From positions 1-35,969 of the forward strand of contig CACAYQ010000009.1 in the NCBI GenBank assembly GCA_902536695.1: 35,969 bases of DNA, given 5' to 3'. Shown in pieces: positions 1,979 through 16,284 of the stretch. How positions within the stretch are numbered: position 1 is the first letter of the stretch; each line of letters begins with the position of its first letter. The position numbers were made by a program, and so were the translations under genes. Origin of the DNA: an uncultured Bacteroidota bacterium. Its GTDB lineage: Bacteria > Bacteroidota > Bacteroidia > Flavobacteriales_D > Parvicellaceae. The notes beneath the pieces were generated by a model. The model was not told the origin of the DNA. It did not search any database and worked only from the letters and a program-made list of their open reading frames with translations.

Positions 1979-3259
1979 ATGAAAATAATTAGTACATATT
2001 TAGTACATTTACATGTGGTTAGTATTTTAAAGAAAAAAACAGCTGAAAAAGCGAATTTTAAGATTAAAAATCTCGGTGATTGTATCCGACTTAGTAACCT
2101 CATATTAGAAATTAATGATGAATTTATTAGCTACAATACGCTAAGGCGGTTTTACGGTATCGTTAAAAGTCCTAAAAAAACATCTACTAAAACACTTGAC
2201 ATTCTATCCAGATTCAATGACTATAGCGATTATGGTCATTTTCTTAAATCATTCAAATTTGAAAATAAATGGAAGCAGCAAAACGACTTGTATGAAGTGA
2301 TGAGTAATGAAAATGATGAAGGTATATTACAGTTAGCTCAAAAATCACTAAAACATAAAGAAAACCATATCGGAATTACAATTCAAATTTTAAGAGAACT
2401 CATAATTACTAAAAAATACAATTTGTTAATTCAGGTTTTTGAGTTAGAAGAGTTAAATTTTCATAAGCTGAGTTATGATGAAATCACCCATATTGGTAAT
2501 GGAGTTGGGTTATTGCTGAGAAACTTCAAATTAGACATTTCTGTTTTAAAAGAACTTATAAAAATTAAAAACTACCAAGATTTAGTACTAACCATGTTTG
2601 TGGACTATAGCCACTTAAACGGGTATTATTTAAATCAAATTAATGTTCTCAATATACTAGATTGCAAACCACACATGATCGCTTTTAAGAAGTGTTTATT
2701 TAATCTTCATTTGTATTTAAATAATAAAAAAGTGATTCCAATAAATATTCAACAGGAAGATACATTTCACCCTATATTAAAAAGCAGAATCGTAGCCCAA
2801 CATCTATTCTACCACAAAAAAAATAAAATGCGTCACTTCGAAGATTACGTTCAACATGAAAGTGCAGCGCATTTTCCTATTGAATATTTTTATGAAATTA
2901 TACTTACGTGCTTAGTCACTAAGGATATTGAAGTTATGCGATGGACCATATCGCAAGTAGAGAAAAATAATTCGGAAAAACACATATTTCACATACGACA
3001 CCTGCAACACTATTACGTGATGAAATCATTGTATTACGCAGCTATCGGGGATAAAAAATCATATCGAAAAGCAAAAAGTCTTTTCAGCTTGGAAGCGGCA
3101 TCTACTTCTTATAAAGAATTTCTCAGAATTTTTGTTCTGATGGGACAATACCACTTTAGCCAAGGGTATGACCGAAAGTTTTATAAAACCGAATACATCA
3201 AACTGGCTAAAAAGTTAGGATACCCTCTATTTGACGAAAACTATCTACAATTAGTGTAG
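1979..3259 (+). CDS. Bacteroidota-type hypothetical protein with HTH-like N-terminal segment
   Basis: This 426-aa protein has no signal peptide. Residues about 30-90 contain a pattern I associate with a family common in Bacteroidota: a short helix, then NTLRRFYGIVKSP, then TLDILSRFNDYSDYGHFLKSF. It looks like a helix-turn-helix or small helical domain. The rest is helical and repeat-like, consistent with tetratricopeptide-type or alpha-solenoid packing. The combination suggests a regulator or scaffold, but the function is unknown. The ATG start is the only one near the N-terminus. Its 3' end overlaps the 3' end of convergent trxB by 9 bp. It marks the border between the accessory patch and conserved genes. 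Confidence 0.7.
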   Translation: MKIISTYLVHLHVVSILKKKTAEKANFKIKNLGDCIRLSNLILEINDEFISYNTLRRFYGIVKSPKKTSTKTLDILSRFNDYSDYGHFLKSFKFENKWKQQNDLYEVMSNENDEGILQLAQKSLKHKENHIGITIQILRELIITKKYNLLIQVFELEELNFHKLSYDEITHIGNGVGLLLRNFKLDISVLKELIKIKNYQDLVLTMFVDYSHLNGYYLNQINVLNILDCKPHMIAFKKCLFNLHLYLNNKKVIPINIQQEDTFHPILKSRIVAQHLFYHKKNKMRHFEDYVQHESAAHFPIEYFYEIILTCLVTKDIEVMRWTISQVEKNNSEKHIFHIRHLQHYYVMKSLYYAAIGDKKSYRKAKSLFSLEAASTSYKEFLRIFVLMGQYHFSQGYDRKFYKTEYIKLAKKLGYPLFDENYLQLV

Positions 3260-4192
3260 CCCTTTTGCCGCCAAATAACGCTCAGCGTCTAGGGCTGCCA
3301 TGCATCCTGTACCTGCTGCTGTAACAGCTTGTCTATACACATGATCTGCTGCATCTCCGGAGACAAAAACTCCTTCTACGTTAGTTTTAGCAGATCCAGG
3401 TTTATTGATAATGTATCCACCTTCATCCATATCTAGGAAAGGCTTAAATACAGCTGTGTTTGGGGTGTGACCAATAGCAATAAATACACCTGTACATGAA
3501 ATTTCTTTTTTATCTTGGGTTTGGTTATTTACCACTCGAACACCCGTTACTACGTTACCATCTCCAAGGACCTCATCTAACTCCGTATTGTGTAAAATCT
3601 CAATGTTTTCCATTCCTCTTACTCTCTCTTCCATAATTTTAGAAGCTCTAAATTCATCTCTCCTTACTAACATGGTTACTTTGGTGCACAGGTTTGCCAA
3701 ATAGGAAGCTTCTTCACAAGCTGAATCACCTGCACCTACGATTACCGTTTCTTGCCCTTTGTAGAAAAAACCATCACAAACAGCGCAGGCAGAAACACCA
3801 CCTCCGTTTAATAGATACTTTTCTTCGGATTCTAAACCTAAATAACGAGCAGAAGCCCCCGTAGAAATAATAATGGTATCTGCATGAATTTCTTTATCGT
3901 TATCCACCCATACCTTGTGTACTGAACCAGAAAAATCAACTTTAGTGATCATTCCCATTCGAACATCGGTTCCAAATCGCTTTGCTTGTTCTTCCAATTC
4001 TATCATCATCTGCGTTCCATTGACTCCCTTAGGGTAACCAGGGAAATTATCTACATCCGTTGTAGTTGTCAATTGACCACCAGGTTGCATACCCTGGTAC
4101 AATACTGGGCTCATATTTGCTCTTGATGCATAGATAGCTGCTGTGAAACCAGCAGGTCCTGACCCAACTATTAAACACTTGTGTTTTTCCAT
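3251..4192 (-). CDS. trxB: Thioredoxin reductase (NADPH)
   Basis: This cytosolic flavoenzyme passes electrons from NADPH through FAD to thioredoxin. The 313-aa length is normal for the low-molecular-weight class. Visible motifs are the N-terminal FAD-binding GSGPAG (residues 10-15), the redox pair CAVC (C136 and C139), the NADPH-binding GAGDSACEEA (about 153-162), and the C-terminal FAD motif GDAAD followed by RQAVTAAGTGC. It is a single gene between a convergent unknown gene and the DUF4249 gene. A perfect TATATTTG promoter box lies 23 nt upstream of the ATG, giving a short conventional leader. No thioredoxin gene is visible nearby. Confidence 0.97.
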   Translation of the reverse strand: MEKHKCLIVGSGPAGFTAAIYASRANMSPVLYQGMQPGGQLTTTTDVDNFPGYPKGVNGTQMMIELEEQAKRFGTDVRMGMITKVDFSGSVHKVWVDNDKEIHADTIIISTGASARYLGLESEEKYLLNGGGVSACAVCDGFFYKGQETVIVGAGDSACEEASYLANLCTKVTMLVRRDEFRASKIMEERVRGMENIEILHNTELDEVLGDGNVVTGVRVVNNQTQDKKEISCTGVFIAIGHTPNTAVFKPFLDMDEGGYIINKPGSAKTNVEGVFVSGDAADHVYRQAVTAAGTGCMAALDAERYLAAKGLH

Positions 4193-4215
4193 TTTGATTC
4201 TTAAAAGTAAGGGGA

Positions 4216-4223
4216 CAAATATA
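4216..4223 (-). promoter_or_regulatory. Bacteroidota -7 box for trxB
   Basis: On the minus strand this reads TATATTTG, a perfect match to the Bacteroidota TAnnTTTG element. It lies 23 nt upstream of the trxB ATG. No convincing -33 TTTG was seen. Confidence 0.6.
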
Positions 4224-4252
4224 CTATTTGAAAGCTAATTGAAATAGAAAAC

Positions 4253-5173
4253 TTATTCACAAATAAGCGTATCATATGACACGCCATAGCCAATAAAAAC
4301 TCCAAGACCATCGCCCTCCACATTATACGGTAAATTTCCCGGTGAAGAAAATATACTTCCATTGGAAACGGCTTGGTTTTCCATAGCTCTTACGTATAGA
4401 TAGGTAGGGTATGTCGTGGTGGTTGATTTTACAAGCACGGTATCTCCTCGTTTGTAAAAACCTCTTTCCGGTCCTTGGTCATCTGGCCCTTCCAATATAC
4501 CGTCTTCGCCCCTAGGAACAGCGAAGTCAAAACTTAAACCATTAAATAACTTATCATCTGTTGAACTTCCAATAGGAGCAAGTGGCCTATTATCTTTCAT
4601 CGTTCCCTTCACATTATCAAAGGGAGGATCGTAATTATAGGTATAGCTATTAATTCGCTGTGCAAACCAACGATAACAATTTCCTACCGTATCGGGATCC
4701 GTAAACTTGGCCCATATAAAACCCAAAGAATCATAAGCTTCGTAAGCAAAAAACCATAAACTATCTAAAATAACAGGATGAGGAATTTGGGCTTTGGCAT
4801 GAGCTTCTTTATCTCCCACTTGTACATGAAGGGTGTAATTTTTACCATATTGTCCAATAATTTCAGGGTCAAATGAGGTGTAGCCCGGAAGTATAACCCC
4901 ATTAGAGTTCACAAAGGAATATACCAATTCAAAGGTTGTATCTCCATCATGTAATTCTACCATAGCATTATCGACAAACATATTTAGAAAAGAATTGCTA
5001 TCTAAAGGATCAAAGTAGCCTTGGGTATTAGTCACTATAACTCTTGGGGGTAACCCGCTTTCTACTACCGCTTCCAGCACAAAAGTTTGCTCCACATCCG
5101 GTAGATCAAACTCTATTTCTTTTTGACAATTTATTAGAAGCAACACACACAATATGTAAAAAAACTTTTTCAT
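4253..5173 (-). CDS. DUF4249-family outer-membrane lipoprotein
   Basis: The product is a 306-aa lipoprotein with a typical signal and lipobox (LLINC, lipidated Cys16). The next residues match the DUF4249 pattern: EIEFDLPD, then FVLEAVVESG, RVIVTNTQGYFDP and a VELHDGD segment. DUF4249 proteins are usually encoded directly after a SusC-like TonB receptor and probably act as its surface-exposed partner. Here the start codon shares one base with the receptor's stop (TAATG at 5171-5175), which implies translational coupling. The substrate is unknown; no degradative enzyme gene sits next to the pair. Confidence 0.88.
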   Translation of the reverse strand: MKKFFYILCVLLLINCQKEIEFDLPDVEQTFVLEAVVESGLPPRVIVTNTQGYFDPLDSNSFLNMFVDNAMVELHDGDTTFELVYSFVNSNGVILPGYTSFDPEIIGQYGKNYTLHVQVGDKEAHAKAQIPHPVILDSLWFFAYEAYDSLGFIWAKFTDPDTVGNCYRWFAQRINSYTYNYDPPFDNVKGTMKDNRPLAPIGSSTDDKLFNGLSFDFAVPRGEDGILEGPDDQGPERGFYKRGDTVLVKSTTTTYPTYLYVRAMENQAVSNGSIFSSPGNLPYNVEGDGLGVFIGYGVSYDTLICE

Positions 5174-7578
5174 TAAAATTTAAAATTCCAGGTAATACTA
5201 GGCAATATTGGAAATAAAGAAACCTGATTAGCGCCAAATTCTACACTACCTTGTAAGGGATCACCACTATAATCAAAAAATATAAAATATGGATTAGCTC
5301 GGTTGTATAAATTATAAACGGAGAAGTTCCATGATGAAATCACTTTTTTCTTCACCATATTTACCTTTCCACTGTCCTTATCAACTTGCTTTTTAGTGGA
5401 CTTGGCATCTACTGTGACCGACAAATCCATTCTGTGATATGGATCTAAACGATAAGCATTTCTATCACTCCAAACCGTTATTAGTCTATTTTCTTCTAAT
5501 GAGAACCACCTACGTTCCGGAAGTGTTAATGAATTTCCTGTGGCATATATAAATACACCACCAATATTTACTCTTTCACTGAGTTGATATTGCAAAACAA
5601 CAGATAAATCATGTCTACGATCATACTTAGCTGGGAACCAACCTCCATCGTCAATTTCATCAAATTGTCTCATCGTTTTAGACCAGGTATATCCTACCCA
5701 GCCGTTAAAATCACCTACTCGTTTTTTGAGGAAAAATTCAGCTCCATATGAATACCCTCTTCCGAAAGTCAGTTGATTATCCACATTGTTACTCAAATTA
5801 TCTTCGGGAAAAGAATTCTCTTTGTACTCAATTAAATTTTGGAGATCTTTATAATATACCTCAACTGACCCTTCATACTTATTATCAAAAAAGTTTTTGA
5901 AGTATCCCATGCTATATTGAGTGCCAATTTGTGGTTTTACCAGTTCCGTACTTGGAAACCAAAGGTCAGTAGGTAATGAAACTGAGGATATAGAAGCTAA
6001 GTGTATGTATTGGTAATTATGGGCAATGCCAAATTTAAATGAAGAATTGTCCTTTAATAAATATCGGGCTGAAAGTCTGGGTTCAGGGCCGTAATAAGTC
6101 TTTACAGACTCAAAATCACCATAAACGGTTGTGCTGTCCGTCACTCCAGAATTAGGGTTTTTATAATATCGAGTAAATGGGCCTACGTGTTGGTACATGG
6201 ACAAACGGAAACCGGCATTAATTTTAAAATTTTCGCTTACATCCCACTCATCCAGCAAATATATAGCGGCTTCGTTACCAAATATTTTTACATCTTCACC
6301 GGTGTCGAATTCAACATCGCCTGATGATGCTCCCAAACTTGATGGTATAAATCGATGTAAGGTATAATTCCAACCAAATTTAACGTTGTGTAATGAATTA
6401 GGATAATAGGTGAAATCTTGCTTTAAATTACCATCTCTAATTCCTGATGATAGACGAAAAGTAAAGCCGCTAGAACCCCCTTCAAATGCAAAATTATAAT
6501 CCGTAAACACAGCTGAAGTGTTTACAAATAGTCGATCATTAAATAGATGGTTCCACCTTAATGAAGCCGTAGAATTTCCCCAGGGAACATTAAAAGTAAA
6601 ATCCAAATCGGCATTATTAAAAGTGAAAACATCCCTACCAAAATATCCACTTAAAAATAAACGATCCTTGTCCGAAAGTCTCCAGTTTAATTTTGCGGTT
6701 AAGTCATAGAAAAAATATCCAGATCCACTAAAGGCGGATGTGTCTGGTATTAAAGGTCGAGTTAATACATCAATGTAAGTTCTTCTTCCTGAGAGAATGA
6801 AAGATGCTGTATCTTCCTTAATCGGACCCTGTAAAGTCAATCTAGAAGCAATTAATCCTATACCTCCATCTGCATGAAAAGACTTATAATTTCCATCCTT
6901 CATAGTAATATCTAAAACAGAGGCTAATCTACCGCCATAGTTTGCAGGCATTCCTCCTTTTGTAAGGGATACATTTTTAATAGCATCTGCATTAAATACA
7001 GAGAAAAACCCAAATAAATGAGATGCATTATACACGGTAGCCTCGTCCAATAAAATTAAATTTTGATCCGGTCCACCTCCTCTTACATAAAATCCAGTAT
7101 TTCCTTCCCCACCAGACTGAACACCAGGTAAAAATTGTATGGTCTTGAGTACATCGACCTCTCCCATGAATGCAGGAATGGTTTTTATTTTGTCTATGTT
7201 TAGATCAATTTTACCCATCTGTGTACCCTTTGTATTTTCATCCGATTGTTCCGCTTCAACTACCACTTCTTGGAGCAAGTCATCAGATTCACTTAGGTCA
7301 ATATTTTTTCTCACGTTAGTATTCAGAATGGCATCTTCAAAAAAGTCCTTATATCCCACATAAGAGTACTTCACTTTGTAACTTCCTTGATTTAGCGTAA
7401 GGGAATAAAATCCATACACGTTGGTTGTGGTGCCTTGACCTAATTCTTCTACAAACACACTAACTCCAATTAAACCTTCGCCAGAACTTGCATCTTTAAC
7501 ATAGCCGCTTAAGGTATACTGTTGGCCATAGCCCAAACAGTATAGGAAAGTTAATAGTAGAGTTGGGAGGAATTTCAT
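5173..7578 (-). CDS. TonB-dependent receptor with carboxypeptidase-like N-terminal domain
   Basis: This 801-aa outer-membrane transporter has a signal peptide ending near GYGQ (about residue 19). A CarboxypepD-regulatory-like beta-sandwich follows (about 21-85, YTLSGYVKDASSGEGLIGVSV). A plug domain comes next (about 120-230) with the VRGGGPDQNLILLDEA and GGMPANYGGRLASVLD motifs. The remaining 550 residues are a beta-barrel that ends in an aromatic Phe, the usual outer-membrane insertion signal. Import is energised by TonB/ExbBD. It is the first gene of a pair with the DUF4249 lipoprotein. A perfect TAAATTTG box ends only 4 nt before the ATG, so its mRNA may be leaderless. The ligand is unknown. 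Confidence 0.95.
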   Translation of the reverse strand: MKFLPTLLLTFLYCLGYGQQYTLSGYVKDASSGEGLIGVSVFVEELGQGTTTNVYGFYSLTLNQGSYKVKYSYVGYKDFFEDAILNTNVRKNIDLSESDDLLQEVVVEAEQSDENTKGTQMGKIDLNIDKIKTIPAFMGEVDVLKTIQFLPGVQSGGEGNTGFYVRGGGPDQNLILLDEATVYNASHLFGFFSVFNADAIKNVSLTKGGMPANYGGRLASVLDITMKDGNYKSFHADGGIGLIASRLTLQGPIKEDTASFILSGRRTYIDVLTRPLIPDTSAFSGSGYFFYDLTAKLNWRLSDKDRLFLSGYFGRDVFTFNNADLDFTFNVPWGNSTASLRWNHLFNDRLFVNTSAVFTDYNFAFEGGSSGFTFRLSSGIRDGNLKQDFTYYPNSLHNVKFGWNYTLHRFIPSSLGASSGDVEFDTGEDVKIFGNEAAIYLLDEWDVSENFKINAGFRLSMYQHVGPFTRYYKNPNSGVTDSTTVYGDFESVKTYYGPEPRLSARYLLKDNSSFKFGIAHNYQYIHLASISSVSLPTDLWFPSTELVKPQIGTQYSMGYFKNFFDNKYEGSVEVYYKDLQNLIEYKENSFPEDNLSNNVDNQLTFGRGYSYGAEFFLKKRVGDFNGWVGYTWSKTMRQFDEIDDGGWFPAKYDRRHDLSVVLQYQLSERVNIGGVFIYATGNSLTLPERRWFSLEENRLITVWSDRNAYRLDPYHRMDLSVTVDAKSTKKQVDKDSGKVNMVKKKVISSWNFSVYNLYNRANPYFIFFDYSGDPLQGSVEFGANQVSLFPILPSITWNFKF

Positions 7579-7582
7579 CTCG

Positions 7583-7590
7583 CAAATTTA
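7583..7590 (-). promoter_or_regulatory. -7 box 4 nt upstream of TonB receptor ATG
   Basis: The minus strand reads TAAATTTG, then four bases, then ATG. With the transcription start expected about 5 nt past the box, transcription would begin at or next to the start codon. Confidence 0.55.
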
Positions 7591-7631
7591 ATTATTTTGT
7601 TTATCTTTTTAATTAATTAGTTAAACAAAAT

Positions 7632-7976
7632 TTAACCACCCTTAAATTTCACGTTGGCTCCTAAGTCTTTTAAGAATTGTTGAACTTTATTTCTATGGTC
7701 ACCCTGTACATAAATCTCTCCCTGTTTGAAACCACCACCAACACCACATTTTTGCTTTAGCTTTTTAGCTAAATCACTTGCATCTTCATCAGATCCTGTA
7801 AACCCTTCGATCAAAGTTACTGTTTTTCCTCCTCTATTTTTTCTATCCACCAACACATATAAATTCTGTTCTGAAAAAGGAATAGAAGAAACTTCATCGA
7901 ACTCTTCCTCATATTCAAAGTTTGGATTAGTTGAATAAACAACATTAATTCTATTTTTTTTGGACTTTTTACTCAT
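7632..7976 (-). CDS. SUI1/eIF1-like translation initiation factor (YciH type)
   Basis: This 114-aa protein carries the SUI1 fold signature in its second half: LYVLVDRKNRGGKTVTLIEG, then LAKKLKQKCGVGGG and the QGDHRNKVQQFL helix. Bacterial members (YciH) resemble eukaryotic eIF1 and are thought to influence start-codon selection and initiation fidelity on the 30S subunit. Residues 1-40 are a charged, Lys/Glu-rich extension. It is the last gene of a five-gene minus-strand run and its ATG shares one base with the stop of the DUF389 gene (TAATG), implying coupled translation. Confidence 0.93.
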   Translation of the reverse strand: MSKKSKKNRINVVYSTNPNFEYEEEFDEVSSIPFSEQNLYVLVDRKNRGGKTVTLIEGFTGSDEDASDLAKKLKQKCGVGGGFKQGEIYVQGDHRNKVQQFLKDLGANVKFKGG

Positions 7977-9400
7977 TACTGATGAAAAATTAGGGCCTTT
8001 TCTGACTTATCGTAAAGAAGCTTTAGTTCATCATTTACAAAAGTTTCAAATGACTGATAGTTCAAGACTTTTGTGGTATCTTTTGACCAGTTCACAATGA
8101 AGACGTAGTTGGTATCGTAACTTCCCTCAAACTCCGAGAAAGATCGTCCATAGTTTAATGAATTTATATCCGGAAAGTGAACTAAAATTCGATCATTTAA
8201 GCTGTTTAACTTTGAATTTTCTTCATCAATGTATTGAAGTACCTTTTTGTACTCCAGCATTTCATTGTAAAGAGACTCTATTTTCTCATCGTTGTTTACT
8301 AAAATTTTATTTAGTAGTTGCTGTTCGTCAATGGCTTTTTGCTGTAAATTATGTACTTCAAAAACAGCATTTCCGAGATCGTATTTTTTAAGCTGAAGAC
8401 CCCACAGCTCTTGAATTTCACTATTGATGTATTTACCATCAATATTTAAAGTGATTTTGGGAGCTTCTTCATCGTATTCTAAAATGATATTATCCTCCGA
8501 TAAAACGATCTCATTATCAATGGTAATTTGCTCGGATATGAATCGCTCCGTGTTTTGGACAAATATGGATTCTTGTATGATATTATAAAATTTAAAAACA
8601 CTAGGAATAACAATCAATAACAAAATAATAAATACATACACTTTAACCTTTCTTTCAATTTTAGGATTGACATATTGCACTTTTGGAAAACTGAGCAATC
8701 TAAGCACTACATAGGTGGCCAAACAAATAAATACACTATTTAATAGAAAGAGGTATAGAGCTCCAATAAAATAGCTCCAATTCCATAGGGCTAAACCAAA
8801 ACCAACCGTGCATAACGGAGGCATTAACGCAGTAGCAATAGCCACTCCAGGAATTACGGTAATGGCAGTTGATTTATTACGAACAGTGGCCGCAATTACA
8901 CCCGCTAAACCTCCAAAAAAGGCTATCAATATATCTAATACCTGTGGCTTGGTTCTGCTTAATAATTCTGCAGTTTCTGTTTTGATTGGAGATACTTTAA
9001 AAAAGATAAATGAAGCCAACAAACTAGCCACAACCATAATACCGAAGTTTTTAAGAGAAGTGATTAGCGCTTTGAAATCGTTAGAAGAGAGTGCATATCC
9101 TATTCCCCTGATAGGTCCCATTAACGGAGAAATAAGCATAGCACCAATGATGACCGCTGTTGAATTATTGATCAGTCCAATAGAAGCAACGATGATAGAA
9201 CAAATTAAAATCCAAATATTAATGGCACTAAAAGAAATATCGTTTTTAATATCAACGATGGTTTTTTCTTTATCCACTACATCGTAGATAGAGAATAGCT
9301 TTTTTATGAATCCAAATATAGACTTGATGCCTTTACTGACCGAAACTTTCTCGACTTCAGACTTGATTGGATCGTAATCAATTTTTCCTTGGTCTTCCAT
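7976..9400 (-). CDS. DUF389-family multi-pass membrane protein
   Basis: This is a 474-aa protein. After a short cytosolic N-terminus, residues about 50-265 hold several transmembrane helices with the DUF389 hallmarks IGAMLISPLMGPI and PGVAIATALMPPLCTVG. A final membrane helix lies near 250-270. The C-terminal 200 residues are soluble and partly coiled coil (KAIDEQQLLNKILVNNDEKIESLYNEML). The biochemical function of DUF389 is not established; the conserved Pro/Gly membrane motifs suggest a transporter or channel. It lies between the patatin-like gene (16 bp gap) and the SUI1 gene (1-nt overlap) in one likely transcript. Confidence 0.9.
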   Translation of the reverse strand: MEDQGKIDYDPIKSEVEKVSVSKGIKSIFGFIKKLFSIYDVVDKEKTIVDIKNDISFSAINIWILICSIIVASIGLINNSTAVIIGAMLISPLMGPIRGIGYALSSNDFKALITSLKNFGIMVVASLLASFIFFKVSPIKTETAELLSRTKPQVLDILIAFFGGLAGVIAATVRNKSTAITVIPGVAIATALMPPLCTVGFGLALWNWSYFIGALYLFLLNSVFICLATYVVLRLLSFPKVQYVNPKIERKVKVYVFIILLLIVIPSVFKFYNIIQESIFVQNTERFISEQITIDNEIVLSEDNIILEYDEEAPKITLNIDGKYINSEIQELWGLQLKKYDLGNAVFEVHNLQQKAIDEQQLLNKILVNNDEKIESLYNEMLEYKKVLQYIDEENSKLNSLNDRILVHFPDINSLNYGRSFSEFEGSYDTNYVFIVNWSKDTTKVLNYQSFETFVNDELKLLYDKSEKALIFHQ

Positions 9401-9416
9401 AAATTAATTTGAGTAA

Positions 9417-11696
9417 CTAATGTAATAACAGATCAGATACTTTTTGTAAACTTTTTTGATTTTCTTCCGTATTCAACTGTTCATAAATCTGGTTTATATC
9501 TTTAGATGTCAAATGCCAACTCATTGAAATTTCGTCACTTGACCCTTCCTTCAAGGAAAATTCAACATAATGTATATCTCCTTTAAAACTAGATTTTAAC
9601 TGATTTAACATTTCATCATTCCGGTAATCTTGAATCTTTAAAAAATTACCATATACATTGGTTAATGGAGTAAACAATTTCGAAATCAAACTACCAGATT
9701 GCTTATCTTTAATTTTTGTTTTCTTCTCCCTATCTCTTAGCTGTATAATGACAACACCAGAGGTGTGTTCATAGATCCAATTTTTAAAATTATCTATATA
9801 TTTTATGGATGTAGTTAATCCTAAATTATCTCTTAACCCAGCATCCATAACCTCTATCTTGGGCTCAGACGGGAGAAATACCATTGGAAGTATATATGGG
9901 AAAGTTGCATTCATTCTCATGGCAGAAGACATTTTTAAATATTGAGGATCATTTTTGTTAAATAGAGTTGAAAACTCAATGTTTTCTAAAGCTATTTTTC
10001 CTGAAAAAAGGCTAGTGTCTGTGTTACACAAAAAAGTTATTTTTTGAGGAGAAATAAGCAACCGTCTTCCATCATTTACTACGGAAGGAGAAAATATCAT
10101 CATGGGAATATCAGAATGGTATTCTGGCAACTTATAATCTAAAATTCGCTTACCTTCAAAGCAGTTCAAATTTTCAATTAAATTCTTTTCAAAAAACCAA
10201 CCTCTATCTTTAGTGTAGATATACTTTCCATCGTCATGTTTTTTAAATCGGTAAAACATGTCTGTAGTAGCTATACTAAACGCCAATGGATTTAGTAGAT
10301 CTTTGGAAATCCTTCTTTTCATTTCATTGCTATTTACTATGGTTTCACCATATATTCCTTTCTTATAATTTTCTCTATAGAAAGCAGCGCCAATCATTCC
10401 ACCCGAGGCTCCTGTGATCAAATGAGTCTGTTTGGTTAATCGTTGGTTTGTAATACTGTCAAGGAAGTTCAACACATGTACTGTCCAAAGGGCAGATCTT
10501 AAACCACCACCACTTGTATTAATAAATACCATTTTAGGTTTATTTATTCCTTTATTTTTTTGACTCCAATGGGTTAATATTTCAATATTTTCTTTTATTG
10601 AGTTTTCAACCTTTAATTTATCCTGCTGAAGTTCACTGATATTTTCATGATCATATTTAGGTTTTAAATCATAGTTTAGACCATATGCATAGTTTCTAAA
10701 TTGAAATAAGTGAAATCGATTAGTTAGAAAATTAAAAGAAACTATAGCAAGGATAAGAAAGGTTAATGTCCAACCTTTAAACCAAGAGTATAGGACCGAA
10801 AAAAGCATGATTAATAATGTGAACAACAAAAAAATACTTGCACCAGCGGGAATATTAAGCCAAGAAATATCTCTGAAAAAACCAATACCCAAGAACGAGA
10901 TTATTAAAGCCAACTCAAAAATAGATGCATTTACATGGTTTTGTGTGAACACTTTTTGGATAAGTTCCTTGTCATAATGCTTTGTACTTCTTGCAATATT
11001 TATAGAAAAAAAGTTCGACAAGTAGGTATCTACTCTCCACGTATTCTTGTATACATTAACTCTTGAGTTTTTCTTTTTTTTAATAAAGTTGGACTCTTTT
11101 ACTTTGTCATTTCCTAGGTTTTCAAAATAGGTTTCTGTCTTGCCACTAATCACAAATACATTTTTATTAAACTGGATAAAATATAAAATGGATAAAATGT
11201 AAAAAACAAACAACCCCACTAAGACACAAATGATATAAATAAAGACGATTCCACTGTTCATCAATTCTTCTTCAGTCAAGAAGAGAAAAATTTGAACTAA
11301 ATAAGTCAAAATGAATAAAGAGGGAATTAACATGTTATTCAAGCAGAACTTTAAAAATGGTCTCGAGAGAGTAGCTAAAAATGTAAAATCGCGAGAAAAT
11401 AAAATATAACTGTATATATGAAAAGCCATAATAAACCCGCCTAAAGAAAAACCCATAATTAGAAAAGACCATGCACCTATCTCGCCCATATAAATTGGAG
11501 CTAAAAACAAAGTGTCTATACCAAACCCAACCCCTAAATTGCCGCTGACATATAAAAACAAAACCAACCAAAAAAGCAATAAAATATGGTTTCTCTTGAT
11601 GTGTAGAAACAAAAGCTGAACAGGGAAGAAATAGATAACTCTTGTAAAGAACTTACTATTTATTCTTCTTTCTTGTATGGAGGATTCTTCAGCCAT
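9417..11696 (-). CDS. Patatin-like phospholipase with a large multi-TM N-terminal region
   Basis: The product is 759 aa. Residues 1-330 contain about six to eight hydrophobic segments (near 35-52, 72-100, 118-142, 150-175, 258-275, 284-303 and 308-325) broken by a basic loop at 195-215. Residues 385-650 form a patatin-type acyl hydrolase: the oxyanion-hole loop SGGGLR (395-400), nucleophile Ser431 in GASGG, and the Asp618 partner in DAGLRDN. Both catalytic residues are present, so lipid acyl-ester hydrolysis at a membrane is likely. The substrate is unknown. A membrane domain this large joined to a patatin domain is less usual than soluble or Omp85-linked forms. It sits in the M61-to-SUI1 run. 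Confidence 0.85.
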   Translation of the reverse strand: MAEESSIQERRINSKFFTRVIYFFPVQLLFLHIKRNHILLLFWLVLFLYVSGNLGVGFGIDTLFLAPIYMGEIGAWSFLIMGFSLGGFIMAFHIYSYILFSRDFTFLATLSRPFLKFCLNNMLIPSLFILTYLVQIFLFLTEEELMNSGIVFIYIICVLVGLFVFYILSILYFIQFNKNVFVISGKTETYFENLGNDKVKESNFIKKKKNSRVNVYKNTWRVDTYLSNFFSINIARSTKHYDKELIQKVFTQNHVNASIFELALIISFLGIGFFRDISWLNIPAGASIFLLFTLLIMLFSVLYSWFKGWTLTFLILAIVSFNFLTNRFHLFQFRNYAYGLNYDLKPKYDHENISELQQDKLKVENSIKENIEILTHWSQKNKGINKPKMVFINTSGGGLRSALWTVHVLNFLDSITNQRLTKQTHLITGASGGMIGAAFYRENYKKGIYGETIVNSNEMKRRISKDLLNPLAFSIATTDMFYRFKKHDDGKYIYTKDRGWFFEKNLIENLNCFEGKRILDYKLPEYHSDIPMMIFSPSVVNDGRRLLISPQKITFLCNTDTSLFSGKIALENIEFSTLFNKNDPQYLKMSSAMRMNATFPYILPMVFLPSEPKIEVMDAGLRDNLGLTTSIKYIDNFKNWIYEHTSGVVIIQLRDREKKTKIKDKQSGSLISKLFTPLTNVYGNFLKIQDYRNDEMLNQLKSSFKGDIHYVEFSLKEGSSDEISMSWHLTSKDINQIYEQLNTEENQKSLQKVSDLLLH

Positions 11697-11729
11697 TAAT
11701 TACTTTAAGATACTGAAAATCTCTGTACG

Positions 11730-12203
11730 CTAATTCAAATTATTTCTTTGTGCGAAAAAAAGTAATACATAAACTAAATGCACCATCGCTAAGAATAGTG
11801 GAAAAACAATAACTGCGTTGCCAGTGACATAGGGCCATGAAACCGTTAATGATGCACCCAGAACAAAAAATGGCACTAAAACATAAGCCAATTGAAATAT
11901 CCAATAAAATATCCAGCCTAACTTTAATCTATAAAACATCATACCGACTCCTACCATGGCCAGCACATCAAAGGCTATTCTTGCTCCATATACCTTAACC
12001 AATTGATTTTGATAATATTCATTATAAATAAACCCTTGTTCTTCCCATTGTTCAAGCACTATTCTTAGTCCATCATTCATGTTTTCAACAGATAAAGGAG
12101 AAGACATGAATAAAAAACAATGTAAACTATCGTTGGCAATGCAATAAATAAATCCTATGAAACTTAAGATGCATAGATAGGTAATGGGTGATTTTTTCTT
12201 CAT
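11730..12203 (-). CDS. Small integral membrane protein (about 4 TM)
   Basis: This 157-aa protein has a Lys-rich N-terminus followed by a hydrophobic helix (about 8-25), a loop of roughly 50 residues with many Glu/Asn/Gln (about 35-70), and three closely spaced helices (about 75-92, 97-120 and 128-150). It ends in a polar tail. No motif was recognised. Only 3 bp separate it from the upstream M61 peptidase stop, and 33 bp from the downstream patatin gene, so all are probably on one mRNA. It could be an accessory subunit for the membrane lipase, but nothing in the sequence proves it. Confidence 0.7.
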   Translation of the reverse strand: MKKKSPITYLCILSFIGFIYCIANDSLHCFLFMSSPLSVENMNDGLRIVLEQWEEQGFIYNEYYQNQLVKVYGARIAFDVLAMVGVGMMFYRLKLGWIFYWIFQLAYVLVPFFVLGASLTVSWPYVTGNAVIVFPLFLAMVHLVYVLLFFAQRNNLN

Positions 12204-12206
12204 CGT

Positions 12207-13862
12207 TTAAATCTTTTCAATTTTGTAATTACAAAATTGGTGATTATTGGGAGCTAACAACGTAATGGTTTTTAATTTTTGATTTCGAAAAATGGACAAT
12301 TCTATAGTTGAACGGTGAAAATAAGAAAGCCATTTATCTAAATTTTGATTCACTTTAACACCGTTAACGGAAAGAATATGATCATTTTCAAGTAAACCAC
12401 TTTCAAAAGCTGAACTGTTTTCAAGCACTGAAATCACATGAACTTCGTTGTTTTTAAGTTGTGTTTTAAAACCATACAACCATAGCTTATTTTCGGATTC
12501 TACTGCGCTATATTTCCATCCAAATACAGAAAAGGCACGTTGTAAGTAAGGTGAAAAATCTTGAACTCCATAAACAAGTGCATCAAATAGATTTGTAAAA
12601 TCTGTCCCTGATACGGATTCTAATGCATCTTTATAGGTAGATGCATCATAGGAATTTACTTTTTTACTTGAATCATGTAATACTCTCATTACATCATGTA
12701 ACGTTTTTGATCCTTTGGTATGATCTCTTATCTCGGCATCACAAATTAAAGCAATTAAAGCACCTTCTACGTAGATAGATACTTTTCTTCCGGGAATTCC
12801 AGACGTATAGCCGTCAAGCCACGTATCCCAACTAGATTCTGAAACAGAGTAATGGAGCCTTCCATCATTGTGAAAATGCCGCTTTAGTAAATTTGATAAT
12901 TCCTTAAAATATTGAGTCTGATCAAACACATTAGACTCAAATAAAATTCGATCGCCCATGTATGTAGTTACACCTTCAGTTACATAACCTAACTTCGTAT
13001 AATTTTCACGAGTATAATCATATGGCACCATATCAATAGGTCTGATTCCTTTAACATTCCACACATGATATAATTCATGAGATGAAACACCAAGTAGTTC
13101 TGTGTATAATCGTTCAAATACATCATAAGATGGGCCTAATAGTATTACCGTAGAGTCATGATGTTCAACACCATGGTATGCATTATGAGTTGTGATTTGA
13201 AATAAAAAATGATACGTCTGGTGAGGAAAACCACCAAAAAGATCGATTTGATATTCAATAAATGTAGCGAAATCAACTATTAGCTTTTCCCAATTTAATT
13301 TAACCTCCCCTTGAAAGCAAAAATAAAATTGAACGTCTTTTACAGATATTTTTTTATGTTTTACGCTTGGACTAGCAATAAAAGGGGAATCAAATAATTC
13401 GTGGTAGTTTGTAGCTTTAAGATGGTGACTATTTTGATTTCCGATGGCACTGTAGACTTGATAGGATTTTGGAACGTCTAGCGTTATTTCAATTTCAGTT
13501 TCTGGAAATTCTGGTAGGAATAAAAAACAATTAACAGGGTTAACATATAGCTGATTTTCATCTAGATATGTCGATCCTGCATTTAACTCAGCAGCATAGT
13601 ATTGATAGGTAATTATGAAATCCTTACCGTTAGCTTGTATACACCATTTGTCTTTTGTCAACTTATTGAACGAAATGGGATGACCATCCATATCATTTAC
13701 CTCAAAATCTTTGATGTTTTTTGCAAAATTGCCCAATTCATATCTTCCAGGTCTCCAAGCTGGCAATTGAACGATAATTTGATCCAAGCTAAACCCATTT
13801 ACAGTTAAACTGAAATCAATAAAATGATTTTCTGGGTCTGTGTAGCTTAATACATATTTCAT
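12207..13862 (-). CDS. M61-family metallopeptidase with C-terminal PDZ domain
   Basis: This 551-aa protein matches the M61 (glycyl aminopeptidase-like) family. It has an N-terminal beta-sandwich with LPAWRPGRYELGNFAKNI (about 34-50), a GVEHHDS motif (about 232-238), and the zinc site HELYH (262-266) in the M61 context HVWNVKGIRP. The third ligand region is TEGVTTY (Glu296). A PDZ domain (about 455-520, SSAFESGLLENDHILSVNG) closes the protein. Family members cleave peptides with an N-terminal preference for small residues. No signal peptide is seen, so a cytosolic location is likely. It is the first gene of the five-gene run, with a TATTTTTG box 4 nt before ATG. Confidence 0.92.
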   Translation of the reverse strand: MKYVLSYTDPENHFIDFSLTVNGFSLDQIIVQLPAWRPGRYELGNFAKNIKDFEVNDMDGHPISFNKLTKDKWCIQANGKDFIITYQYYAAELNAGSTYLDENQLYVNPVNCFLFLPEFPETEIEITLDVPKSYQVYSAIGNQNSHHLKATNYHELFDSPFIASPSVKHKKISVKDVQFYFCFQGEVKLNWEKLIVDFATFIEYQIDLFGGFPHQTYHFLFQITTHNAYHGVEHHDSTVILLGPSYDVFERLYTELLGVSSHELYHVWNVKGIRPIDMVPYDYTRENYTKLGYVTEGVTTYMGDRILFESNVFDQTQYFKELSNLLKRHFHNDGRLHYSVSESSWDTWLDGYTSGIPGRKVSIYVEGALIALICDAEIRDHTKGSKTLHDVMRVLHDSSKKVNSYDASTYKDALESVSGTDFTNLFDALVYGVQDFSPYLQRAFSVFGWKYSAVESENKLWLYGFKTQLKNNEVHVISVLENSSAFESGLLENDHILSVNGVKVNQNLDKWLSYFHRSTIELSIFRNQKLKTITLLAPNNHQFCNYKIEKI

Positions 13863-13866
13863 AACT

Positions 13867-13874
13867 CAAAAATA
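13867..13874 (-). promoter_or_regulatory. -7 box 4 nt upstream of M61 peptidase ATG
   Basis: On the minus strand, TATTTTTG is followed by four bases and the ATG. It matches TAnnTTTG exactly. It is back to back with the plus-strand box at 13916 in the 65-bp divergent spacer. Confidence 0.5.
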
Positions 13875-13915
13875 GAATTAATGTGTAAACCTATATGTCA
13901 TTTTAGATGCATAAT

Positions 13916-13923
13916 TAAATTTG
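13916..13923 (+). promoter_or_regulatory. -7 box 4 nt upstream of ATP-grasp ATG
   Basis: TAAATTTG is followed by tgac and then the ATG at 13928. The match is perfect and the spacing is the same as at the M61 peptidase, TonB receptor and def genes. No clear -33 element was found. Confidence 0.55.
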
Positions 13924-13927
13924 TGAC

Positions 13928-14836
13928 ATGAAAAAATATGATGTAGTTGTACTTACTGATTCTAGATACGTTAACCCATTAAAAACAAACACATACATAA
14001 GTAATGTATTACGAGAGGATGAGTTGGTCATAAACGCACTAAAAGAAAAAAATCTATACGTTGTCAAAAAGGATTGGAATGACTCCATTTTTGACTGGGA
14101 AACTACACGATCAATACTATTCAGATCTACTTGGGATTACTTCGATAAATTTGAGCTATTTAAGAAATGGTTTAATAAAACAAAAAATAAATGTTTGATG
14201 ATAAATTCGACTGAAACCATAGAATGGAATATTGACAAACATTACTTACTGGATCTACAAGAACATCAAATTCCAATTCCAAATAGTGAATTTATTAAAA
14301 GAGGATCATCTATTGATTTATCGCTGTTAATGCAGAAAAAAAATTGGAATGAAATTGTGGTGAAGCCTACTATTTCGGGTGCGGCTAAAAATACATATAG
14401 ATTAAAAGAAGAGGAAATAATTCAATTTGGCCCTACATGGGAAAAACTCATTTACAAAGAAGATTTTATTGTCCAAGAATTTCAAAACAATGTGATTATA
14501 GAAGGAGAAGTGGCCATGATAGTGATTGGAGGAAAATTTACTCATGCCGTGTTAAAAAAAGCAAAAGAAGGTGACTTTAGAGTACAAGACGATTTTGGAG
14601 GTAGCATTGCAAAATACAATCCAAGTGAAGAAATGGTTAAGCTTGCTGAGAAATGTATTCGTATTCTAACTCCGATCCCTTCCTATGCAAGAGTAGATAT
14701 CATTTGGGATAATCTCATGGATTTAGCAGTATCAGAGTTGGAATTAATTGAGCCAGAACTCTGGTTTAGGTTAAACCCAAATGCAGCGCAAAAACTAGCA
14801 AATCATGTTGACCTTATTTTAAGTGAAAAGAAATAG
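13928..14836 (+). CDS. ATP-grasp domain protein (carboxylate-amine/thiol ligase type)
   Basis: This is a 302-aa soluble protein. The middle and C-terminal parts show ATP-grasp features: a phosphate-loop Lys in VVKPTISGAAKNTY (Lys146), an adenine-lid-like VQEF (about 182-185), EGEVAMIVIGGKFTHAVLKK, and the magnesium site formed by RVDIIWDN (Asp257) with ELELIEPELWFRLNPN (acidic residues at about 270-276). The last motif is shared with a glutathione-synthetase-like group that includes the D-cycloserine enzyme DcsG. The enzyme joins a carboxylate to an amine or similar nucleophile using ATP; the substrate is not predictable here. Divergent from the M61 peptidase and followed by lpdA (59 bp). Confidence 0.85.
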   Translation: MKKYDVVVLTDSRYVNPLKTNTYISNVLREDELVINALKEKNLYVVKKDWNDSIFDWETTRSILFRSTWDYFDKFELFKKWFNKTKNKCLMINSTETIEWNIDKHYLLDLQEHQIPIPNSEFIKRGSSIDLSLLMQKKNWNEIVVKPTISGAAKNTYRLKEEEIIQFGPTWEKLIYKEDFIVQEFQNNVIIEGEVAMIVIGGKFTHAVLKKAKEGDFRVQDDFGGSIAKYNPSEEMVKLAEKCIRILTPIPSYARVDIIWDNLMDLAVSELELIEPELWFRLNPNAAQKLANHVDLILSEKK

Positions 14837-14895
14837 TTATCAAATCATATTTGAACCCATTAATTTTTAAATTCGCAGTAATTTAATTGAATACT

Positions 14896-16284
14896 ATGAA
14901 CTACGATGTAATTGTTTTAGGCAGCGGTCCTGGTGGATATGTAACTGCAATCAGAGCTTCACAACTTGGAATGAAAACAGCTGTAATTGAAAAAGAATCG
15001 CTTGGCGGTGTATGTCTTAATTGGGGTTGTATCCCAACGAAAGCCTTACTCAAAAGTGCAAATGTGTACGAATACATCAACCATGCTGAAGATTACGGGA
15101 TTAAAGTGAGTAGCCATAAAGCTGATTTCTCGGCTGTGGTAAAGCGAAGCAGAAGTGTGGCAGAAAAAATGAGTGGTGGTGTTCAATTTTTGATGAAAAA
15201 AAACAAGATTGATGTAATAATGGGTACTGGAAAAGTAAAGCCTGGTAAGACCATTGAAGTAACAGATGAAAAGGGGGAGAAGAAAGATTACACAGCTAAA
15301 AATATTATTATTGCAACAGGTGCAAGATCACGCCAACTCCCCAACTTAGAACAAGATGGAAAGCAAATTGTAGGATACAGAGAAGCCATGGTACTGCCAA
15401 AAATGCCAAAGAAAATGGTAATAGTTGGGTCAGGGGCCATTGGAGTTGAATTTGCTTATTTCTATAATGCGATGGGTGTTGATGTAACAGTAGTAGAATA
15501 TTTACCAAATATTGTTCCTGTAGAAGATATTGATGTTTCAAAACAACTAGAAAAGACTTTCAAAAAGAAAGGAATGAACATCATGACTAATTCTTCTGTC
15601 GAAAAAGTGGAAAAGTCCTCTAAGGGTTGTGTAGTTCACGTCAAAACCAAAAAGGGTATGGAAACACTTAACTGTGATGTAGTTCTTTCGGCAGTAGGTA
15701 TACAACCTAATATTGAAAATATTGGTTTGGAAGAAACAGGAATTGTAGTTGATGCTGGAAAAATCGTGGTAAATGATTATTATGAAACTAATATTCCTGG
15801 ATATTATGCCATTGGGGATGTCGTTGCTGGACAAGCCCTTGCCCATGTTGCTTCAGCAGAAGGAATTACATGTGTAGAAAAAATAGCAGGACAAAATCCA
15901 GAACCAATAGATTATAACAATATACCTGGTTGTACATATTGCAGCCCAGAAATAGCTTCAGTTGGTATGACTGAGAAAGCGGCTAAAGAAGCTGGTTATG
16001 AGTTAAAAATAGGTAAATTCCCTTTCTCTGCGTCAGGTAAAGCAAGTGCTGCCGGTCACAACGATGGATTCATTAAGTTAATCTTTGATGCCAAATACGG
16101 TGAACTTCTAGGTGGCCACATGATTGGGGCTAATGTTACCGAAATGATAGCAGAGATTGTGGCCTTAAGAAAGTTAGAAACTACTGGACATGAGCTTATT
16201 AAGACGGTTCATCCACACCCCACCATGAGTGAAGCAGTTATGGAAGCTGCTGCTGCTGCTTATGACGAGGTAATTCACATTTAA
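14896..16284 (+). CDS. lpdA: Dihydrolipoyl dehydrogenase (E3)
   Basis: This FAD flavoenzyme reoxidises dihydrolipoamide in the 2-oxoacid dehydrogenase and glycine-cleavage complexes with NAD+. The chosen ATG at 14896 gives 462 aa and the normal MNYDVIVLGSGPGG start. A TTG at 14887 would add three residues and is less likely. Motifs are the FAD-binding GSGPGG (9-14), the redox disulfide CLNWGC (C40/C45), the NAD-binding GSGAIGVEFAYF, a second FAD motif with AIGDV, and the catalytic HPHPT (439-443). It is full length. No E1/E2 genes are adjacent. Its 3' end overlaps the convergent TPR lipoprotein gene by 4 bp. Confidence 0.97.
   Translation: MNYDVIVLGSGPGGYVTAIRASQLGMKTAVIEKESLGGVCLNWGCIPTKALLKSANVYEYINHAEDYGIKVSSHKADFSAVVKRSRSVAEKMSGGVQFLMKKNKIDVIMGTGKVKPGKTIEVTDEKGEKKDYTAKNIIIATGARSRQLPNLEQDGKQIVGYREAMVLPKMPKKMVIVGSGAIGVEFAYFYNAMGVDVTVVEYLPNIVPVEDIDVSKQLEKTFKKKGMNIMTNSSVEKVEKSSKGCVVHVKTKKGMETLNCDVVLSAVGIQPNIENIGLEETGIVVDAGKIVVNDYYETNIPGYYAIGDVVAGQALAHVASAEGITCVEKIAGQNPEPIDYNNIPGCTYCSPEIASVGMTEKAAKEAGYELKIGKFPFSASGKASAAGHNDGFIKLIFDAKYGELLGGHMIGANVTEMIAEIVALRKLETTGHELIKTVHPHPTMSEAVMEAAAAAYDEVIHI

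Follow-up and report, generated by a model that had tools for sequence, protein, structure and literature searches.

The question raised by this locus is what a patatin lipase does when it is joined to a large membrane domain, and on which side of the membrane it would act. The gene lies at 9417..11696 (-) in a 35,969-nucleotide stretch of DNA from an uncultured Bacteroidota bacterium (GCA_902536695.1, contig CACAYQ010000009.1), to the whole of which we refer as the window, and codes for a protein of 759 residues that is kept in relatives, with an ATG start and with the stop codon lying within these coordinates. An initial annotation, made from the sequence alone, had described this frame as a patatin lipase fused to an N-terminal membrane domain, and our analysis agrees with it on coordinates, strand, length and start codon, as well as on the numbering of the motifs (SGGGLR, Ser431 in GASGG and Asp618 in DAG), all of which is correct. 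A chance reading frame is excluded, because the whole length of the protein is conserved at 32-74% identity to 55 relatives.

Pfam finds a single domain in the 759-residue protein, Patatin (PF01734), at residues 395-627, scoring 34.6 bits where the cut-off is 27.7, while no Pfam model matches residues 1-394. The membrane domain, at residues ~1-330 (1-330 lie at 10707..11696 (-)), is without a match in both Pfam and NCBIfam, in agreement with the earlier statement that it has no recognised family; hydropathy and charge pattern predict about seven TM helices in this region with the N-terminus inside. The patatin domain, as delimited by PF01734 and by fold matches, takes up residues 385-759 (9420..10544 (-)). 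The protein is a patatin lipase joined to an N-terminal membrane domain and conserved as a unit, and it is a conserved, lineage-wide variant of patatin lipase in Bacteroidota.

The catalytic residues were followed through an alignment of 208 rows, made up of the query and 207 sequences of at least 700 residues that were left after identical copies had been removed from 277 hits, and in which the window protein is present twice. The glycines of the oxyanion-hole motif SGGGLR (GGG 396-398, 10503..10511 (-)) and the dyad aspartate Asp618 in DAG (9843..9845 (-)) are kept in 208/208 rows, the nucleophile Ser431 in GASGG (10404..10406 (-)) in 207/208, and the two dyad residues together likewise in 207. 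The sole exception at Ser431, L177, has a gap just before the site and an unrelated-looking stretch at it. A loss of Ser or Asp in most homologues, the outcome against which the initial annotation had set its proposal, was thus looked for and not found. In the AF2 model of the full protein (mean pLDDT 84.6, pTM 0.84), the lipase part is matched by Foldseek to patatin, CapE, CapV, PlpD and iPLA2-beta with E values of 1e-6 to 3e-4, and VIA-align gives Z 20-23 (rmsd 3.6-4.7, 267-313 residues aligned) to potato patatin, CapE, CapV and iPLA2-beta, and Z 18.6-19.1 to PlpD. Overall, these matches span about 240-313 residues (Z about 19-23); none of the listed fold-match rows aligned before residue 350, and the patatin alignments reach residue 759, the last, or near it. 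The catalytic domain is a patatin with an intact catalytic dyad and, judging from knowledge of the family, is most likely an acyl hydrolase of phospholipase A or lysophospholipase type.

The same architecture, which the initial annotation had proposed to seek in other Bacteroidota, was found in many relatives. A protein search gave relatives, mostly of full length, in 86/150 near-relative genomes; they were further found in 212/399 genomes from the order (144/238 among the good ones) and in 20/296 from the phylum, 2 of these 20 being weak and partial, with the window genome included in each count and with some of the matches counted in the genome surveys being pieces at contig ends. Family counts obtained with the tool used for the patatin search of the window's own genome are lower bounds, because that search, which gave only a different frame of 296 residues on contig C7, failed to recover the window gene. 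When named genomes were scanned with patterns that lie within the lipase, at least 574 stretches proved to carry a relative, close or distant, and other patatins may be among them; the best 80 match over most of the protein at 38-60%, most of them in records entitled Flavobacteriales, Crocinitomicaceae, Vicingaceae, Bacteroidetes, Bacteroidia or Chitinophagales. Acidiluteibacter ferrifornacis S-15 (L150) is a named strain with a relative. When a profile of residues 1-383 alone was searched against 395 genomes of the phylum, it matched in 22, and the open frames concerned were 741-795 codons long; since all 22 have the size of the whole protein, the N-terminal domain was not seen without the lipase. 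Residues of the membrane part that are invariant in 56 sequences include P25, W43, G59, P67, Y69, N120, N121, P125, G161 and P283. A limited search of the open-licence PubMed Central literature found no description of this 7TM-patatin architecture.

Membrane segments and patatins are combined in other layouts as well. A frame from a genome of the same class (L094:5906-8224 (+), 772 residues) has 8 or 9 hydrophobic segments followed by a patatin with GASGG and DGG; it shares only 21% identity with the window protein over residues 374-746, is missed by the N-terminal profile and scores 25.1 against the Pfam patatin cut-off of 27.7. Two distant relatives of this frame, L281 and L282 (29% and 25% in the aligned stretches; frames of 742 and 892 codons), have seven and eight hydrophobic segments ahead of the lipase part and keep DGG, their serine motif being STVSGG and not GxSGG, with the first glycine of GxSxG replaced. 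A third possible membrane-patatin layout is found at L095:6080-8122 (-), where about four hydrophobic segments in 680 residues precede a patatin match of 21.7 bits (cut-off 27.7). At L134, two patatin-profile frames lie side by side, 30 bases apart, reflecting a duplication or a frame break.

Hydropathy places seven segments in the window protein, at residues 38-56, 73-91, 122-140, 150-168, 255-273, 284-302 and 306-324. The initial annotation had counted six to eight, and seven is also the commonest number under a crude hydropathy rule with a lower threshold, applied to 136 profile-matching frames of at least 650 residues (window and duplicates included), which gave 7 segments in 84, 8 in 40, 6 in 9, 5 in 2 and 9 in 1. 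Across the modelled membrane domain, ten-residue pLDDT means are 78-98, except at residues 1-20 and 171-220. The basic loop 4-5 (residues 175-254, 10935..11174 (-)) is predicted from its charge to be cytoplasmic, having a mean net charge of +8.6 and being positive in 55/56 sequences; its residues 195-216 fall below a pLDDT of 50. Modelled alone, residues 1-383 gave a pLDDT of 78.3 and a pTM of 0.72. A Foldseek search of the PDB with this model returned nothing with E <= 0.001 and 11 matches with E <= 10, and VIA-align against the 82 top Foldseek chains gave a best Z of 3.9, to cytochrome b561 (rmsd 5.4 over 146 residues). Neither comparison yielded a convincing structural match of the membrane part to a transporter or receptor, nor did they match residues 1-330 to a well-described, unrelated fold, and this lack of a match does not establish a new fold. 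We infer that the 7TM part serves mainly as an anchor and as a means of setting the active site against a lipid surface.

The side of the membrane on which the lipase lies is decided by the predicted TM7 (residues 309-326, 10719..10772 (-)), a helix called from hydropathy and modelled as one with TM6. When 56 sequences were scored for net positive charge, the N-terminal tail was positive in 56, loop 1-2 in 0, loop 2-3 in 56, loop 3-4 in 1, loop 4-5 in 55, loop 5-6 in 1 and loop 6-7 in 45, and position 307, in the short 6-7 turn, carries K, R or H in 187/208 rows. Seven helices, as read from hydropathy, and a basic N-terminal tail would, under the positive-inside rule, set the lipase on the periplasmic side. 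A calibrated topology predictor put the lipase outside in 191/208 rows at K=3 (158 with 7 helices N-in, 30 with 6 helices N-out), in 201/208 at K=4 and in 157/208 at K=2. Its settings were accepted on CtaA, which was returned with 8 helices N-in in 6/6 cases at K=3 and K=4 and in 5/6 at K=2, and because CtaA is the sole accepted control, the calibration rests on one family; Lnb was given 3-6 helices, and the predictor worked with hydropathy and free-energy scales. An earlier script was discarded because it failed on the control, returning CtaA with 0-4 helices; it had placed the C-terminus inside for the query and all of its 207 relatives. Residues 309-326 have a mean hydrophobicity of 0.66 and a moment of 0.15, both within the range of TM1-6; on another scale TM7 is the least hydrophobic helix, with 76/208 reaching 1.6. 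The patatin part contains 0.32% Cys, whereas neighbouring ORFs average 1.02% if they have neither a TM segment nor a signal-like start (230 ORFs) and 0.91% if they have one or the other (63 ORFs), although Cys content is a weak marker of side, because 5 sequences of the Lnb N domain, which its Pfam name places in the periplasm, contain 1.56%.

Other observations bear on TM7 itself. Both AF2 models (full and 1-383) draw residues 284-327/328 as one continuous helix; if this helix is straight, the chain would cross the membrane six times and leave the lipase in the cytoplasm. Covariation over the 208 rows (about 171 effective) gave a signal for the TM3-TM4 hairpin and none for a TM6-TM7 hairpin at centres 303-315, in a test of low power, since the TM1-TM2 and TM5-TM6 hairpins are hardly seen either. 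For coupling between lipase and loops, the top 10 pairs under a reduced alphabet comprised 5 on the periplasmic side and 1 on the cytoplasmic side (shift null 0.010, fading to 0.147 at the top 100), in conflict with corrected mutual information (MI21), whose top 50 held 4 periplasmic-side pairs versus 36 cytoplasmic. The pairs 169-312, 159-316, 157-313 and 262-318, which were picked after the list had been viewed, would fit TM7 packed against TM4 and TM5. From the sequences we infer seven TM helices with the N-terminus inside, and the lipase probably lies on the periplasmic side of the inner membrane. Of the initial annotation's proposal that the lipase is tied to the inner membrane, the part that stands is that a polytopic domain ties an intact patatin to the membrane; the side of the membrane was missed.

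Within the window, the gene forms part of a run on the (-) strand that opens with a gene for an M61-family peptidase with a PDZ domain (12207..13862 (-), assigned by Pfam; present in 10/138 loci), followed by one for a hydrophobic protein of 157 residues without a Pfam or NCBIfam match (11730..12203 (-); 9/138 loci), the patatin gene, a gene for a DUF389 membrane protein of 474 residues 16 bases downstream (7976..9400 (-); PF04087, 143 bits) and one for a SUI1/YciH-type translation factor of 114 residues (7632..7976 (-); PF01253; 35/138 loci), with further genes on the same strand thereafter. The successive gaps are 3, 33 and 16 bases, and the last two genes named overlap by one base. Scans for promoters and terminators, which turned up fewer matches than shuffled sequence, are uninformative. 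The 138 loci compared here are stretches of ~7 kb on each side, which include duplicates (e.g. L098 and L040) and many of which are ended by contig ends. On the other strand, at 13928-14836 (+), the window encodes an ATP-grasp protein that in part matches the D-cycloserine synthetase DcsG, scoring 120 bits where the cut-off is 360.

Counting same-strand neighbours at gaps below 300 across these 138 loci gave FTCD in 46, DUF389 in 29, an arginase-type protein in 18, the 157-residue protein in 7, CtaA in 6 and Lnb in 4. FTCD (e.g. L050, L061) and the arginase family (e.g. L051, L074), both of histidine-degradation type, are common upstream, in those 46 and 18 loci. A role in histidine degradation was considered on this account and set aside, as no linking mechanism was found, and we read the association as lineage synteny. 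That such neighbours are common, and that the neighbour set is mixed, calls for caution in naming DUF389 or Lnb as a partner. DUF389 lies on the same strand within 1.5 kb downstream in at least 26/86 patatin-positive genomes, in families f1, f4, f8, f9, f11 and f13, and is present in 55/86 patatin-positive versus 25/64 patatin-negative genomes (p 0.003, with phylogeny ignored). Lnb, reported to be the lipoprotein N-acyltransferase of Bacteroides (PMC12994826), follows the patatin gene directly, on its strand and within 1 kb, in at least 8/86, namely in 7 of the 8 patatin-positive f3 genomes and in one of f2; examples checked by Pfam (PF13387 and PF25221) are L061:5802-6971 (-), L069:5779-6963 (-) and L056:9147-10334 (+). 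These adjacency counts in 150 genomes are lower bounds, with 65 patatin, 32 DUF389 and 9 Lnb rows picked by eye. The DUF389 protein is our best lead to a partner. A passage of PMC12419801 that had been taken as DUF389 literature concerns DUF3892 instead and was discarded.

Compared with known systems, the window protein shares with patatin-like phospholipases (potato patatin, CapE, CapV, iPLA2-beta and PlpD) the fold, the GGG motif, the GxSxG serine and the DxG aspartate, but solved patatins match the lipase part only, and the membrane part is without a counterpart in the rows listed. Type Vd autotransporter patatins such as PlpD and FplA carry a patatin with a C-terminal barrel. If the predicted side of the window protein holds, they would have in common with it a patatin outside the cytoplasm; the window protein, however, is without a C-terminal barrel, and its anchor is N-terminal and helical. 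A type Vd assignment was rejected, as Pfam finds no barrel domain and the patatin fold runs to residue 759; because the alignments end at or near this last residue, there is no room for such a barrel. PlaF of Pseudomonas aeruginosa (PMC9132575) is a phospholipase A1 that is bound to the cytoplasmic membrane and exposes its catalytic domain to the periplasm; its deletion mutant has an altered phospholipid composition, and a role in lipid remodelling is ascribed to it. The likeness is that of a lipase bound to the inner membrane, facing the periplasm (a prediction in the case of the window protein) and proposed to remodel lipids, whereas PlaF joins an alpha/beta-hydrolase to one TM helix and the window protein a patatin to about seven. 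PlaF is the nearest functional precedent, by analogy and not by homology.

On this basis, the reading we favour, and to which we give an even chance of being right in full, is that of a patatin hydrolase on an inner-membrane anchor of about seven helices, facing the periplasm and deacylating phospholipids or lysophospholipids of the periplasmic leaflet. A dedicated domain would keep the lipase close against the inner membrane's outer leaflet, and there the Ser431-Asp618 pair would remove acyl chains from phospholipids or lysophospholipids; this deacylation would be housekeeping lipid remodelling and not attack. The same enzyme with six helices would instead be a cytoplasmic lipase on the inner leaflet, acting on newly made lipids, as the continuous helix 284-327 in both models, the missing hairpin covariation at centres 303-315 and the weakness of TM7 among the seven would allow. 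We think this unlikely, if well worth keeping in view, given that residues 309-326 are no more amphipathic than the other helices and, on one scale, resemble them in hydrophobicity, that a basic residue or His occupies position 307 in most rows, that the lipase is low in Cys and that the calibrated topology favours the outside. The CBASS effectors CapV and CapE are soluble and have a cyclase partner. Both rank with the closest structural matches of the lipase part (Z 20-22.5), and residues 395-437 weakly match CBASS_lipase (18.5 bits) and PADLOC phospholipase effectors (13.2 bits), but the former score is far under the family cut-off of 200 (NF041079, NCBIfam), no PADLOC match was found in the five neighbours scanned, and Pfam shows no cyclic-nucleotide synthase among the nine proteins of window positions 3251-16284. 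In addition, most genomes having the protein show one match each, and to our knowledge one copy per genome is not usual for defence genes. A phage-defence effector of this type is, on scores and neighbours, extremely improbable.

Two further proposals, and one that draws on both, give the enzyme or its membrane part a more specific task. The Lnb reaction leaves a lysophospholipid, and an enzyme disposing of the lysophospholipid from lipoprotein N-acylation, by Lnb or Lnt, in the periplasmic leaflet would make sense of the genomes of f3 and f2 in which Lnb directly follows the patatin gene. Over 150 genomes, however, patatin and Lnb do not co-occur (47 with both, 39 with patatin only, 39 with Lnb only and 25 with neither; Fisher p 0.51, with phylogeny ignored), Lnb is on another contig in the window genome, and a single event within one clade may account for the adjacency; the lack of co-occurrence led us to reject the Lnb link as a general explanation, and we hold the disposal role to be improbable. 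That the 7TM part might be an active module, which binds, senses or translocates lipid in order to supply or gate the lipase, possibly in concert with DUF389, is improbable; the initial annotation's own suggestion, that the membrane part senses or delivers lipid substrate, is neither supported nor refuted by our results. The membrane domain is seen only together with the lipase, it has invariant residues, and DUF389 recurs downstream in six families, yet the conserved residues may serve folding only, DUF389 is without a known function in Pfam, 109/138 loci are without DUF389 directly beside the patatin (some of them ended by contig ends), and no convincing transporter or receptor fold was matched. 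It is similarly improbable that the protein is part of a lipid-handling machine specific to Bacteroidota lineages, in which a 7TM domain of its own kind would capture lipid or bring it, for example the lysophospholipid of N-acylation, to a periplasmic patatin site together with DUF389.

Phospholipid turnover at the bacterial inner membrane is little known, PlaF having been described in 2022 as the first such membrane-bound phospholipase A1 (PMC9132575). The protein described here adds another way to deploy a patatin, beyond soluble and barrel-linked forms, and it puts an uncharacterised membrane domain and DUF389 into a testable lipid context, the recurrence of DUF389 downstream of the patatin in several families being a lead to the function of the DUF389 protein. 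A conserved enzyme that is tied to the membrane by a domain of its own would give a clean genetic handle on lipid turnover in Bacteroidota.
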